DNA of 10,323 nucleotides, from assembly GCA_001803565.1 (NCBI GenBank), contig MHDQ01000120.1, positions 10,813 through 21,135 on the forward strand. Reading direction: 5' to 3'. Under the pieces are notes generated by a model. The model saw only the letters and a list, made by a program, of their open reading frames with translations, ran no database searches and was not told where the DNA came from. Position 1 is the first letter of the stretch; each line of letters opens with the position of its first letter. The position numbers were made by a program, and so were the translations under genes. Shown here in pieces: positions 60 to 8,861 of this stretch. This stretch comes from Nitrospinae bacterium RIFCSPLOWO2_12_FULL_45_22 (GTDB lineage Bacteria > 2-12-FULL-45-22).

Positions 60-1081
60 TTGCTAGAAGTAAATTTTACCCTGGTGGTTCAGATGGCCCT
101 TTTTCTGGTTACCATGTTTTTGTTAACAAAGTTGCTCTTTAAGCCCATCATGCAGACCCTGGAGAAAAGGGATGCAGCTATTTATGGTAGCCGGCAAGAG
201 GTAGAAGTAAAAGAAAAGCAGTTCAAAGAACAGTTAGAGAATTATCATACCACGATAGATGCTGCCAGGAGGCGATTAGCAGAGGAGTTGGCTCAAAAAA
301 GGAAAGAGGCAGAGGCCGAACAAGCCGCCCTACTAAATAAGGCACGGGAAGAATCTTCTAATCTATTAGATGAGGCCCGGATAAAGATAAAAGAAGAGGA
401 AGAAAAGGCCAGGATAGCCCTCAGAGCGCAAGGCCAGCTATTCGCCTCATTTATAGTGCGGAAGCTGTTAGGCCGCGACCTCTTGCAAAAGACATTAGGA
501 CTATTGCCCTTATTCTTATTGGTCCCCTCAGTTGCTATCTTTATTTTCCCGGCGCTGCTTTGGGCGGTAACCGAAGGCCCTGCCCATAACGGCGGAGTGC
601 CAGCCGAACAGTACATTAAGCTGGCCTGGCAAATCATCAACTTCATTGTCTTAGTGGTTGTACTATATCTACTCATGCGCAAGAACCTGGCAGATTATTT
701 TGTCCAACGTAGTAACACGATAGGGACAGAGATTGATGCAGCCCAAAAAGCCCGGATAGAGATGGAGCGAAAAATTAAAGAGTATGAGGCAAGACTGACA
801 GGAGTGGATCAGGAGGTTGCTCGTATGCAAAAAGAGGCACAGAAGGAGATGGAAGCCCTCCGGCAAAAGATGCGGGAAGATACTAAGCGGGTTTCAGGGC
901 TGATCTTGCAGCAATCCCAAAAAAGTATCCAGTTAGAGACTAAAAGGGCGCAACAAGCCCTGCAGGCTGAAGCGTCTTTGCTGGCTATCAACCTTGCCAA
1001 GGACATTTTGAAACGGGAGATAACCCCAGAAGACCAGACCCGCCTGGTCCAGAACTATATCGGTAAGATAGGAGAGTCAGC

Positions 1082-1085
<4 letters not shown>
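60..1085 (+). CDS. atpF: Fused ATP synthase F0 subunits b' and b (peripheral stalk)
   Basis: This frame encodes two complete stalk subunits in tandem. Residues 1-141 look like b': a membrane helix at about 6-27, the motif LLFKPIMQTLEKRD (25-38), then a charged coiled coil ending in KLLGRDL. Residues from about 142 look like the b subunit of Desulfobacterota-type operons: a signal-peptide-like hydrophobic stretch (about 147-169), a short polar loop (TEGPAHNGG), a second membrane helix (about 186-206), and a long charged coiled coil to residue 341. The b subunits anchor F1 to subunit a and resist rotation. b' and b are normally two genes of about 140 and 200 codons; here no stop separates them. 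Start is TTG at 60 with AAGGAG 7 bases upstream. An in-frame TTG at 483 (codon 142) could restart translation of b, but its upstream sequence has only a weak AGG. The identity is secure; whether it is one polypeptide in vivo is not. Confidence 0.9.
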
Positions 1086-3146
<2,061 letters not shown>

Positions 3147-3330: not shown

Positions 3331-4194
3331 ATGTCGAGCCTAAGGATTATTCGCCGCAGAATAAACAGTATAAAGACTACGCAGCAGATAACTAAGGCCA
3401 TGAAGATGGTCTCTGCCGTCAAGTTTAGGCGAGCGCAAGAGCGGGTGATAGCCGCCCGGCCTTATGCCTACCGCATGGCTGAGGTAATCAGTAGACTGGC
3501 TAAAAGGACTAATCCAGAAGCCCATCCTTTACTGACCAGGCGGGCTAGAGAAAAGGCCTTGCTTATAGTTATAACGGCCGATAAAGGGCTCTGTGGTAGT
3601 TTCAATAGCAATGCAATAAAGAGAACGATGGCCCTTCTGGAAGAGGACCAGGTACAGTTCTCTCTTATAACTCTCGGGAAAAAAGGGACGGGTTACTTCA
3701 AGAAACGAAATGTAGTTATAAAAAGGGAGTATATAGACCTTTTCCGAAGCTTTTCATATAAAGACGCAGCGGCTATAGGCCGAGAGGTTAAAGAGGCTTA
3801 TATCCAGGGCGAGGTTGATGAAGTGATCATGGTATATAATGAATTTGTTTCAGCCATGCAGCAACGGCTAACAACAAAGACCCTCCTCCCTCTTGCCCTG
3901 CCTTCTTTAGGAGAGGGTGAAGGGGGGGAATTTATTGAGTATATTTATGAACCTTCAGCCAGCCAGGTACTGGAAGCCCTGCTAAATAGATATGTCGAGG
4001 TCCAAATCTTTCATGCCTTGCTTGAATCGGCTGCCAGTGAGCATGGGGCCAGGATGACAGCTATGGATGCAGCGACAGAAAATGCCTCAGAGATGATTGA
4101 TCGCCTCACTCTCCTGCTTAACAAGGCCAGGCAAGCGGCTATTACTAAAGAACTGATCGAAGTAGTTAGCGGTGCCGATGCCCTTAAAGGTTGA
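3331..4194 (+). CDS. atpG: ATP synthase F1 subunit gamma (central rotor shaft)
   Basis: Gamma is the rotating shaft inside alpha3beta3 and couples c-ring rotation to catalysis. The 287-residue length is normal. The N-terminal helix (LRIIRRRINSIKTTQQITKA, 4-23) fixes the start at ATG 3331. TADKGLCGSFN (82-92) is the central signature, and SAASEHGARMTAMDAA (233-248) leads into the C-terminal helix ending ITKELIEVVSGADAL. There is no recognisable Shine-Dalgarno sequence: the bases before the ATG are T-rich, and the nearest purine run, in the repeat around 3295-3300, is about 30 bases away. Residues 185-200 (LLPLALPSLGEGEGGE) occupy a variable loop and look unlike typical gamma sequence; the DNA there is strongly purine/pyrimidine biased. 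Despite this the protein appears intact. Confidence 0.97.
   Translation: MSSLRIIRRRINSIKTTQQITKAMKMVSAVKFRRAQERVIAARPYAYRMAEVISRLAKRTNPEAHPLLTRRAREKALLIVITADKGLCGSFNSNAIKRTMALLEEDQVQFSLITLGKKGTGYFKKRNVVIKREYIDLFRSFSYKDAAAIGREVKEAYIQGEVDEVIMVYNEFVSAMQQRLTTKTLLPLALPSLGEGEGGEFIEYIYEPSASQVLEALLNRYVEVQIFHALLESAASEHGARMTAMDAATENASEMIDRLTLLLNKARQAAITKELIEVVSGADALKG
3881..3928 (+). repeat. Repeat-like C-rich/G-rich inverted segment inside atpG
   Basis: CCCTCT at 3888-3893 and AGAGGG at 3912-3917 are perfect inverted copies separated by 18 bases. They are flanked by further pyrimidine-rich sequence on the left and a run of seven G on the right (3922-3928). The pattern resembles the CCCTCTCC...GGAGAGGG palindromic repeats scattered in many bacterial genomes, whose translations give LPS.GEGEG-like peptides. 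Here it is in frame and encodes part of gamma residues 185-200. It could equally be chance composition of a variable acidic loop. Confidence 0.35.
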
Positions 4195-5634
<1,440 letters not shown>

Positions 5635-5648
5635 ACGCCCTTAGCGCT

Positions 5649-6065
5649 ATGGCCGATAAAATATTGCTGGAAATTGTTAGCCCAGAAAGACAAGTAGTTA
5701 AGGAGCTGGTGGATGAAGTGACCGCCCCGGGTATAGAGGGCTATTTTGGTGTATTACCCGGACATACCCCATTCCTTACTACCTTAAAGATTGGTGAGAT
5801 AGCTTATAAGACAGATAACATTACTCGTTATTTAGCGCTCTGCTGGGGCTATGCCGAGGTAGAACCAGATAGGGTCGTTCTCCTGGCTGAGACGGCTGAG
5901 CCCGCAGAAGAGATTGATATAGAAAGGGCGGAGCGGGCCCGCCACCGGGCTGAGGATCGCCTGCGGCAAAAGACGGAGGAGTTAGATTTTGAACGGGCCC
6001 GCATAGCCTTAGAACGGGCACTTATCCGGCTCCAGGTAGCGAGTAAGAGAGTGAGTGGCCTATAA
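5649..6065 (+). CDS. atpC: ATP synthase F1 subunit epsilon
   Basis: Epsilon binds gamma and the c-ring and can inhibit ATP hydrolysis through its C-terminal helices. The protein has 138 residues, normal for the long bacterial form. Residues 1-85 are the beta-sandwich domain with the signature GYFGVLPGHTP (31-41). About 88-138 is the helical hairpin, rich in Glu and Arg (for example ERAERARHRAEDRLRQK), so both parts needed for inhibition are present. ATG at 5649 lies 14 bases after the atpD stop. No Shine-Dalgarno sequence precedes it and no upstream in-frame start exists before the atpD stop, so translation probably depends on coupling to atpD. It is the last gene of the ATP synthase set. Confidence 0.97.
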   Translation: MADKILLEIVSPERQVVKELVDEVTAPGIEGYFGVLPGHTPFLTTLKIGEIAYKTDNITRYLALCWGYAEVEPDRVVLLAETAEPAEEIDIERAERARHRAEDRLRQKTEELDFERARIALERALIRLQVASKRVSGL

Positions 6066-6157: not shown

Positions 6158-6673
6158 GTGGTGTCCCTCGCATTAAGAGACGTGGCTTATATCCTGCCCA
6201 AAAAAATCTTATTATTTATCCTGTATCAAGTTTTTTTCGTTTTCCTTTTCTTTCCCTCAGTACAAGCTGGCGAGCTTATTTGCCAGGTCTGCCAGCGAAA
6301 AATCCACCCCCAGGTCAGCTTTGTCCTGGAGTTACGAGATGGGTCAAGGATAAAGACTTGCTGTCCCGGGTGTGCCATTTATCAGCAAGCCCAGGCAAAG
6401 CTCAAGGTCAAGGCTGCTTTTGCTACCGATTATATAAGTGGAAAAGCCCTTAAGGCAGAAGAGGCTATCTTTGTGGAGGATAGTGACCTGGATTTCTGTA
6501 GTCATCCAGCAATGCTTCTCACTGAGTCAAAAACCCCACTGGCAAAGGTTTGGGACCGCTGCTTGCCCAGCCTGGTAGCCTTCGGAAACCCTGATGACGT
6601 CCGTAAGTTCCAACAAAAACATGGTGGCCACCTTCTCTCCTATGAAGACATAGTAAGGGAGAGACAGAAATAA
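6158..6673 (+). CDS. NosL-like, Cys-rich exported or membrane-anchored protein
   Basis: The function is not established. Residues about 14-37 form a hydrophobic segment after two lysines, ending PSVQAG, which looks like a signal peptide or membrane anchor, so the rest is probably extracytoplasmic. The mature part has CQVC (42-45) and CCPGC (68-72), plus Cys at 114 and 135, arranged like TRASH/NosL-type metal sites. ATDYISGKALKAEEAIFVE (89-107) and the C-terminal VAFGNPDDVRKFQQKHGG...YEDI follow the NosL pattern, in which a TDY-containing segment, an xxFVxxSD strand and an AF.....A..F...HGG ending recur. NosL proteins bind Cu(I) for nitrous oxide reductase; no nos gene is seen here, so copper delivery is only a possibility. 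The start is GTG at 6158 (GTG at 6161 is an alternative), with AGGTGG at 6145-6150. It is 31 bases upstream of the GH57 start and probably cotranscribed with it. Confidence 0.65.
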   Translation: MVSLALRDVAYILPKKILLFILYQVFFVFLFFPSVQAGELICQVCQRKIHPQVSFVLELRDGSRIKTCCPGCAIYQQAQAKLKVKAAFATDYISGKALKAEEAIFVEDSDLDFCSHPAMLLTESKTPLAKVWDRCLPSLVAFGNPDDVRKFQQKHGGHLLSYEDIVRERQK

Positions 6674-6692
6674 TAATCTATAGGTCATGCAA

Positions 6693-6700
6693 GGGAGGGG
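6693..6700 (+). promoter_or_regulatory. Ribosome binding site that sets the GH57 start at 6705
   Basis: GGGAGGGG at 6693-6700 precedes the ATG at 6705 by four bases (about six from the GGAGG core), an ideal arrangement. The in-frame ATG at 6687 would place this purine run inside the coding region and itself has only a weak AGG upstream. The conserved GH57 N-terminus (LVLAFFWHMHQP) also begins just after the second ATG. Confidence 0.8.
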
Positions 6701-6704
6701 TTTT

Positions 6705-8861
6705 ATGGAGCAGGGATTAGTGCTCGCCTTTTTCTGGCATATGCATCAGCCCATATATAAAGACCCTATAACCCAACAGTACCTCTTACCCTGGGTAAGG
6801 TTGCATTCTACCAGGGGATACTTTGATATGATCTCTATCCTGGAGGATTTTCCCCAGATAAAAGCGACTTTTAACCTTACTCCTTCGTTGCTTCAGCAGA
6901 TAGTAGATTATTCCACTAACGCTAATATAAACGATGTTTATCTGTACTATACCAGAATACCAGCCGCAGAGTTGCCCCAGGAGGGAAAGCTCTTTATCTT
7001 AAAAAATTTTTTTAAATGTAATTGGGATACAATGATTAAACCCTTTCCTCGTTACTGGTCTCTCTTACAGAAGCGGGGGTTGAATCCGAGCAGAGAGGAT
7101 CTAAACAGTACGGCGGGGAAATTTTCTGGTCAAGATTTTTTAGATCTACAGGTTCTTTTTAACCTGGCATGGTTTGGTTTTCGGGCTAAGCAGCGCTGGT
7201 TTGAGCTTTCGGAGCTGATAAAAAAGGGGGAAGGATTTTCCGAGCAGGATAAAGAGTTGGTCTTGTCTATCCAGCAGGCAGTCGTCAAAGAAGTCCTCCC
7301 TTATTATCGGAAGTTGGCCGAAGCCGGGCAGATTGAATTGACTACCAGCCCTTATTGTCATCCTATATTACCTTTGCTCTGGGATACCTCCCTGGCCCGT
7401 AGGGCATTCCCGAATATATCCCTTCCCAACCCATTTCAACACCCAGAAGATGTAAGGGCTCAGATTGATAAAGCTATTAGTTGCCATAAGGAGATTTTTG
7501 GCATAGCCCCAAAAGGGCTGTGGCCTTCAGAAGGTGCGGTCTGCCCTGAATTGATACCAGTTTTATCCGAAGCGGGTATAGAATGGATAGCTACCGATGA
7601 AGGGATTTTATGGGGCTCTCTGCCAACCGAAGGGCGGGGCAGGGATTCTCTCTATAAGCCATATCGGGCTACCTTTAGGGATAAGGAAATAGGTATAGTA
7701 TTCCGGGATCGGGGGTTGTCCGACCTCTTTGGTTTTGTATATCATCACAATAGGCCGGAAAACGCCGTAGAAGACTTTTTCGGACGCCTATCCCAGATAA
7801 AAAATTACGTAGAGAACCCCCTGGTTTCCATAATCCTGGATGGTGAGAATCCATGGGAATACTATCCTGATGGGGGGCAGGGTTTTTTGTCCCTGCTTTA
7901 TCAAGGCATTACCCAACAAAAAGTCCTCCAGACCACCAAGTTAGGAGATTATATCCGTTCTCATCCCTCTATCCTAACGCTGAGTAAACTAGCCTCTGGC
8001 TCCTGGATAAATAGCAACTATGAAATCTGGATAGGTAGCCAGGAAGATAATCAGGCCTGGAACTATTTGGGACATACCCGGCAGTGGCTGGAATACCAGA
8101 GGCAAAAGGGCAGCCGCCCCAACGAACAGATAGCCATTGCCCTGGAAGCAATTTATACGGCCGAGGGGAGTGACTGGTTTTGGTGGTACGGGCCCCAGTT
8201 CTCTAATCCCTATAAGGGGATATTTGATGAACTGTTCCGAAAAAACCTTATGCAGGTCTACCGGGCTTTAGGTGAGGAGGTCCCGCAGTATCTCTCCTTC
8301 CCTGTCTGTCAAGCGGAGAGGCAGGAAAAGAGCGGCCTGCCTGTGGGTTTTATTTCTCCTCATATTGATGGTAAAATAACCCATTTTTATGAATGGCGGG
8401 CAGCCGGGTTTTACACGGTTAGCTTAGGGCAAGGGGCTATGGCCGAGGGCCAGGCCCTGCTATCGGCGATCTATTTTGGTTTTGATCAGGATAATCTTTA
8501 TTTTCGCTTAGACCCTATGCCTCTCCCGGAAGGGCTGGATACTGCGGCATGGGAAATCCATATCGAGCTGCGTGGCCCAGAAGAAAGGAAGCTGATGTTC
8601 CCTTTCGATAAAGAAAGATGTAACGGACTAACTTTGCATAAAGCTGGCCTGGTCAGCCAGACTTTTTCGTCTATAGCTTATGATAAAATAATAGAGGTCG
8701 GGGTCCCTTTTCGGAGCCTGGATTATTTACCCGGTTGTTCTATCGGCTTTTGTGTATCTATTCAGAATAGCTTCTTGGAAATAGCCCGCTATCCGAGGGA
8801 GGGACTCCTTAACTTTACTATACCCGAAGAGTCTTTTGAAGCTACCATGTGGAGCGTCTAA
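6705..8861 (+). CDS. Glycoside hydrolase family 57 enzyme (alpha-amylase/glucanotransferase type)
   Basis: GH57 enzymes act on alpha-glucans with retention of configuration, as amylases, 4-alpha-glucanotransferases, branching enzymes or related activities; the exact one cannot be read here. The 718-residue protein has the family regions in order: WHMHQP (11-16), HPILP (219-223), GLWPSE with the likely nucleophile E276, and LDGENPWE with the likely acid/base D379. AEGSDWFWWYG (486-496) marks the end of the catalytic part. Residues from about 535 to 718 are predicted beta-rich and probably form a C-terminal sandwich domain, possibly DOMON-like or carbohydrate-binding. There is no signal peptide, so it should be cytoplasmic and act on stored or imported glucan. 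The start is chosen at ATG 6705 for its ribosome binding site. Both catalytic carboxylates are present, so it is likely active. Confidence 0.93.
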   Translation: MEQGLVLAFFWHMHQPIYKDPITQQYLLPWVRLHSTRGYFDMISILEDFPQIKATFNLTPSLLQQIVDYSTNANINDVYLYYTRIPAAELPQEGKLFILKNFFKCNWDTMIKPFPRYWSLLQKRGLNPSREDLNSTAGKFSGQDFLDLQVLFNLAWFGFRAKQRWFELSELIKKGEGFSEQDKELVLSIQQAVVKEVLPYYRKLAEAGQIELTTSPYCHPILPLLWDTSLARRAFPNISLPNPFQHPEDVRAQIDKAISCHKEIFGIAPKGLWPSEGAVCPELIPVLSEAGIEWIATDEGILWGSLPTEGRGRDSLYKPYRATFRDKEIGIVFRDRGLSDLFGFVYHHNRPENAVEDFFGRLSQIKNYVENPLVSIILDGENPWEYYPDGGQGFLSLLYQGITQQKVLQTTKLGDYIRSHPSILTLSKLASGSWINSNYEIWIGSQEDNQAWNYLGHTRQWLEYQRQKGSRPNEQIAIALEAIYTAEGSDWFWWYGPQFSNPYKGIFDELFRKNLMQVYRALGEEVPQYLSFPVCQAERQEKSGLPVGFISPHIDGKITHFYEWRAAGFYTVSLGQGAMAEGQALLSAIYFGFDQDNLYFRLDPMPLPEGLDTAAWEIHIELRGPEERKLMFPFDKERCNGLTLHKAGLVSQTFSSIAYDKIIEVGVPFRSLDYLPGCSIGFCVSIQNSFLEIARYPREGLLNFTIPEESFEATMWSV

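Follow-up and report, generated by a model that had tools for sequence, protein, structure and literature searches.

The 10,323-nucleotide stretch of DNA analysed here (the window) carries at 60-1085 of the forward strand one open frame of 341 amino acids, without an internal stop, in which the b' and b subunits of the F1Fo ATP synthase follow each other. We regard this frame, with a probability of roughly 0.6, as a genuine fusion by which both subunits of the peripheral stalk are made as one precursor that is subsequently cut. The parts are ordinary b' and b; what is new is their arrangement.

The fused gene starts with TTG (60-62) behind a good Shine-Dalgarno sequence (AAGGAG at 47-52 of the forward strand; 47-59 including the spacer) and is terminated by TGA at 1083-1085. 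The Pfam family ATP-synt_B (PF00430) matches the protein twice, at residues 7-137 (b') and 188-317 (b), and the halves, each compared alone with this profile, scored 59.6 and 63.4 bits, well above its cut-off of 28. The NCBIfam labels were PRK07353, subunit B', at residues 2-139 and TIGR01144 on the b part. Both the joining of b' and b in one frame without a stop and the in-frame position of the TTG at 483-485, as claimed in the initial annotation, were confirmed. The b' part delimited by the Pfam and PRK07353 matches (60-482, residues 1-141, forward strand) consists of a membrane helix at about residues 4-28 and a long amphipathic helix, and its end lies near residues 139-141 (KLLGRDLL). It is followed by a hydrophobic, signal-like segment, LQKTLGLLPLFLLVPSVAIFIFPALLWA, recognised by hydropathy at 483-566 of the same strand (residues 142-169), then by VTEGPAHNGG and, again according to hydropathy, by the membrane helix of b at about residues 185-211, from which the stalk helix extends up to the stop. 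The initial annotation let b' run straight into the hydrophobic start of b; the direct passage into a hydrophobic stretch holds, but this stretch is signal-like, precedes the conserved b domain and lies outside it. By eye it can be aligned with the N-terminal signal-like segments of the separate b subunits of three other genomes (G001, G033 and G043). A candidate signal peptidase I site is located after LLWA (residue 169), at 566/567, so that the mature b part, which contains the Pfam 188-317 and TIGR01144 matches, would correspond to 567-1085 of the forward strand.

Downstream of the fused gene and on the same strand the atp operon continues directly with atpH (delta subunit, 1082-1633, TIGR01145), which overlaps b by 4 nt (TTGA), and with the intact genes atpA (alpha, 1635-3146), atpG (gamma, 3331-4194), atpD (beta, 4219-5634) and atpC (epsilon, 5649-6065). 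Since the frame that joins the two homology domains stays open through the junction, and the other genes of the operon are intact, the junction is more than a chance event. The usual arrangement, i.e. separate b' and b genes, which is not part of the Pfam definition, is absent in the window, where there is one ORF. A profile search of the whole genome found no second PF00430 gene above the cut-off, and the fused gene is the sole detected source of both b and b' in this genome. Subunit a (PF00119) was not found in the genome, an 85%-complete MAG that does contain the F1 genes, delta and b'/b; this is probably a gap in the MAG. An Rfam search of the window gave no match.

The surroundings of the operon contain some further genes. 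Just upstream of the window, on the minus strand of the same contig (C120:6583-10266, locus L037), a protein of 1227 aa is encoded next to the atp genes; it has a caspase-like (CHAT) domain, a middle part that appears to bind ATP and many near-identical TPR repeats. Within the window, 6158-6673 encodes a small, apparently exported protein that matches NosL weakly (26.5 bits) and belongs to no NCBIfam family, and 6687-8861 a 724-aa protein of glycoside hydrolase family 57, which has about 300 additional residues in its C-terminal part.

The initial annotation had proposed a search for the same fusion in related genomes; it was found in an unrelated family of another phylum and in a second family of that phylum, and the only phylum-mate of the window's organism is unfused. 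In a domain-wide survey of 386 genomes at least one further true fusion (G346) was present among the matches listed, beyond which further fusions may exist. In the family of this genome (f248) an uninterrupted b'-b ORF was observed in all 14 genomes, which represent five genera and share 32-75% identity. Each genome gave one match, and at E 0.001, a threshold at which more distant copies could be missed, no further b or b' gene was present among the matches. The same fused architecture occurs in G441, i.e. in at least one genome of the second family. As a trait conserved in f248, the fusion is no artefact of assembly. About 25 further genomes of this phylum have separate b' and b genes, and only a few residues precede the membrane helix in their b, which lacks a signal-like segment; in all 15 fused proteins of f248 and G441, by contrast, an additional hydrophobic segment lies between b' and b. 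The coincidence of this segment with the fusion can be understood from the topology: the end of b' is cytoplasmic and the start of b lies outside, so one more membrane crossing is needed. The fused protein of the window is only about 25% identical to those of f248, and its halves are closest to the products of the separate genes of G001. Judged from these similarities, the two fusions most likely arose independently.

Not every fused-looking frame in the survey turned out to be one. Four genomes (G072, G213, G342 and G298) appeared fused by the length of the open frame, but in the DNA of each of them b' and b are divided by a stop, and they were dropped. In the phylum of G275 (18 genomes) there are six cases where b' and b share a frame and are parted by a single stop; about one third is what chance would give, and this was not taken as a sign of readthrough. 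At three loci (L141 in G443, L142 in G448 and L004 in G043) 0 to 3 bases separate the b' stop from the b start, the two are in frame with each other (e.g. TAG ATG), and a single substitution would give the same fusion. In most genomes of genus g308 of f248 (L077-L083) b' has a longer and near-invariant N-terminal part (MAGSLDIYPFHDTEG) ahead of the first membrane helix.

In the phylum of the window, which has two genomes in the comparison set, the fusion rests on one assembly, a single MAG. The sole phylum-mate, G001, belongs to the same order and encodes b' and b separately, in genes that share 4 nt (TTGA); the proteins of the two organisms are 44% identical in b' and 40% in b. It is therefore not a close relative with separate genes and identical flanking sequence, of the kind that the initial annotation thought would speak against the fusion. 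In G001, in G033 (the one genome of its phylum in the comparison set) and in members of the G275 phylum, b' stops three residues beyond a conserved GR, and the N-terminus of b is a signal-like segment. Three residues past this GR the window has a CAA codon (486-488, forward strand), one transition away from TAA. In addition, a TAG is found in the +1 frame at 496-498 of the same strand, and an excess of one base upstream would have hidden this stop. When single edits were made systematically, an extra base anywhere at 470-496, or any of seven substitutions, could have masked a stop. Since a single base error would suffice to mimic the open frame, the window alone cannot prove the fusion. It is conceivable that the MAG contains such an error, and that in the organism the two genes overlap or abut as in G001: removal of one extra base in 470-496, or a T in place of C at 486, would restore a b' of normal length. 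The quality of the data does not favour this explanation. The longest homopolymer at the junction does not exceed 4, the neighbouring atp genes are all intact, and the 210 genes predicted in 21 sampled stretches of the MAG (mean 327 aa, 84% coding) gave no sign of frequent frameshifts. Moreover, the same architecture, conserved elsewhere, gives the fusion a realistic prior, and a faulty MAG leaves the other family unexplained. The loss of a stop by an assembly error, one of the explanations put forward initially, thus stays a possible, though unlikely, cause in the window's genome and fails for f248. The fusion is very probably truly present in the organism, which is our judgement and not a computed value. 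A search for related loci among the genome contigs returned one match only, a distant and unrelated locus.

If the fused chain is a precursor, its maturation may be envisaged as follows. The b' half would insert in the membrane, with its stalk emerging into the cytoplasm, and the hydrophobic segment 142-169 would act as an internal signal peptide that crosses the membrane from inside to outside. The b membrane helix could then cross from outside to inside, in its normal orientation. Signal peptidase I would most likely cleave behind LLWA (residue 169), on the outer face of the membrane, so that the N-terminus of mature b would be free in the periplasm. What is left of the signal would remain attached to the b' C-terminus on the cytoplasmic side and might be released by a site-2-type intramembrane protease or by another protease, so that b' could reach delta at the top of F1. 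Signal peptidase I and M50 site-2 proteases are both encoded in the window's genome. The topological reasoning in the initial annotation (in-to-out, then out-to-in) proved sound. According to hydropathy and the alignment, the internal hydrophobic segment inverts the topology between two membrane proteins of one complex.

Of the four possibilities considered initially, cleavage after the signal-like segment, near LLWA, is the best supported, since the fusion is conserved in the other phylum together with a motif at a near-constant position. There the segment resembles a signal peptide, a short hydrophobic stretch followed by A-X-A. Just before b this motif occurs in 12 of the 15 fused proteins, in 11 of them at -14 to -18 from the b core, a position that was noticed post hoc. 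The enrichment is statistically modest: 6.8 were expected from shuffles (p 0.0015), and with one sequence per divergent group the motif was present in 8 of 11 against 4.9 expected (p 0.02). The remaining three proteins have LLA, AFS or AQG at the site, which are allowed by the small-residue rules. The site of the window, LLWA/VTEG (L-W-A), is weaker than A-X-A; by eye its counterpart in G001, where b is separate, is an A-X-A (GWALA/AGEGGH). The sequence shows the fusion and the logic of its topology; the cleavage, its site and the release of the b' tail we infer. The signal-like segment of the window is longer than that of the other lineage and could persist as a membrane anchor.

This last point bears on the idea that the fused chain is translated and never cut. 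The stator would then be a single chain, with a normal b helix beside a b' helix that is bent or has its C-terminus anchored at the membrane. Such a chain is topologically allowed, the segment 142-169 of the window could by its length span the membrane stably, and the cleavage site is not strong. The geometry, however, is unfavourable. A straight helix from residue 29 to 136 rises about 160 angstroms (1.5 per residue), while the roughly 20 residues of 137-156 can bridge at most about 70 angstroms. Since this linker is too short for the return to the next membrane helix, an uncut chain with a normal b' would, on this estimate, not fit, and cutting would be the simplest way out. A single-sequence AlphaFold model of the fused protein (mean pLDDT 73, pTM 0.26), to be taken as a hint only, predicted b' as one straight helix at 2-136, breaks at 137-156, a helix at 157-176 and b at 182-318. 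It is the sole model and a weak one, and its straight b' lends no positive support to the folded-back helix that the initial annotation had suggested. In addition, the fusions keep a full-length b' with its conserved C-terminal end, which argues for a reach to the top of F1, and motifs resembling signal peptidase sites are conserved in the other lineage. Altogether an uncut chain appears improbable, and still somewhat more so in the specific form of a stator in which a third span ties the b' helix to the membrane and b' works beside b in one polypeptide. To our knowledge, a stalk with b' tied back by a third membrane span has been seen in no solved ATP synthase.

It was also suggested initially that b may be produced separately by internal initiation at TTG 483; TTG 504 could serve likewise, and the fused chain would then be just a source of b'. 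TTG starts are common in the window's genome (40 of the 210 predicted genes), and MQKTLGLLPLF... would make a passable signal peptide. The Shine-Dalgarno sequences before TTG 483 and TTG 504 are, however, weak or badly spaced, no in-frame start codon is conserved across the junctions of the fused proteins, and the junction of G346 has no in-frame ATG, GTG or TTG. Besides, no free b' would be supplied, as each b' would still have b attached. Internal initiation is therefore very unlikely, above all as a general mechanism. A programmed +1 frameshift in the CAA AAG region, after which part of the ribosomes would end at TAG 496-498 and release free b', can practically be dismissed: the +1 stop does lie a few bases 3' of the A-run, but a stop within five codons of a given frame is expected in about 1 of 5 cases, there is no recognised +1 slip motif or stimulator, and the feature is not conserved in the other lineage.

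The b' and b subunits are needed in equal amounts and side by side; one precursor would fix their ratio at 1:1 and couple their insertion. A joint precursor also means that the halves must be separated or the stalk rebuilt. A fusion conserved throughout a family offers a clean natural test of the freedom of the stator, and that of f248 tests as well whether bacterial signal peptidase processes a polyprotein in a core energy-converting machine. Since the b of G001 already has a signal-like N-terminus, loss of the stop codon would give the fused architecture from a G001-like state. This suggests an evolutionary route in which b first gains a signal peptide and the stop codon between the genes is lost afterwards, resulting in a topologically workable fusion.

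Where b' and b are separate genes, in bacteria and chloroplasts (PF00430; atpF2/atpG and atpF), the two domains, their order, the layout of membrane and stalk helix in each half and the operon order, b'-b-delta-alpha-gamma-beta-epsilon, are the same. The window differs from this arrangement in having one frame instead of two and an internal signal-like segment between the halves. In the solved relatives in the PDB b and b' are separate chains. The closest working analogue known to us is the cytochrome b/c1 precursor FbcH of Bradyrhizobium, in which likewise two subunits of one bioenergetic complex are made in one chain; this is split at an internal signal peptide, and its cleavage is experimentally known. 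The proteins are unrelated, and in the case of the b'-b fusion the cleavage is a prediction. The literature search found no open paper that describes this precursor. A natural stator fusion of the ATP synthase is known from mycobacteria, where b is joined to delta via a helical bundle and the product stays one chain (PMC8617483). That join is located at the top of F1, while the b'-b join forces a return to the membrane; b of the window is not fused to delta, which is a separate ORF. This b-delta protein was the only such fusion found in the open literature, the scope of our search, and no report of a b'-b fusion was found there. For the two-step maturation proposed here a parallel is provided by the viral core-E1 junction, where signal peptidase makes the first cut at the signal peptide on the C-terminus of the upstream protein and an intramembrane protease the second (PMC5402940). 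The topology is the same, with a cytoplasmic domain, an internal signal and an exported N-terminus, but the viral process takes place in the eukaryotic endoplasmic reticulum and employs an aspartyl protease. Its bacterial analogue would be an M50 protease such as RseP, which in E. coli clears remnant signal peptides (PMC10470546).
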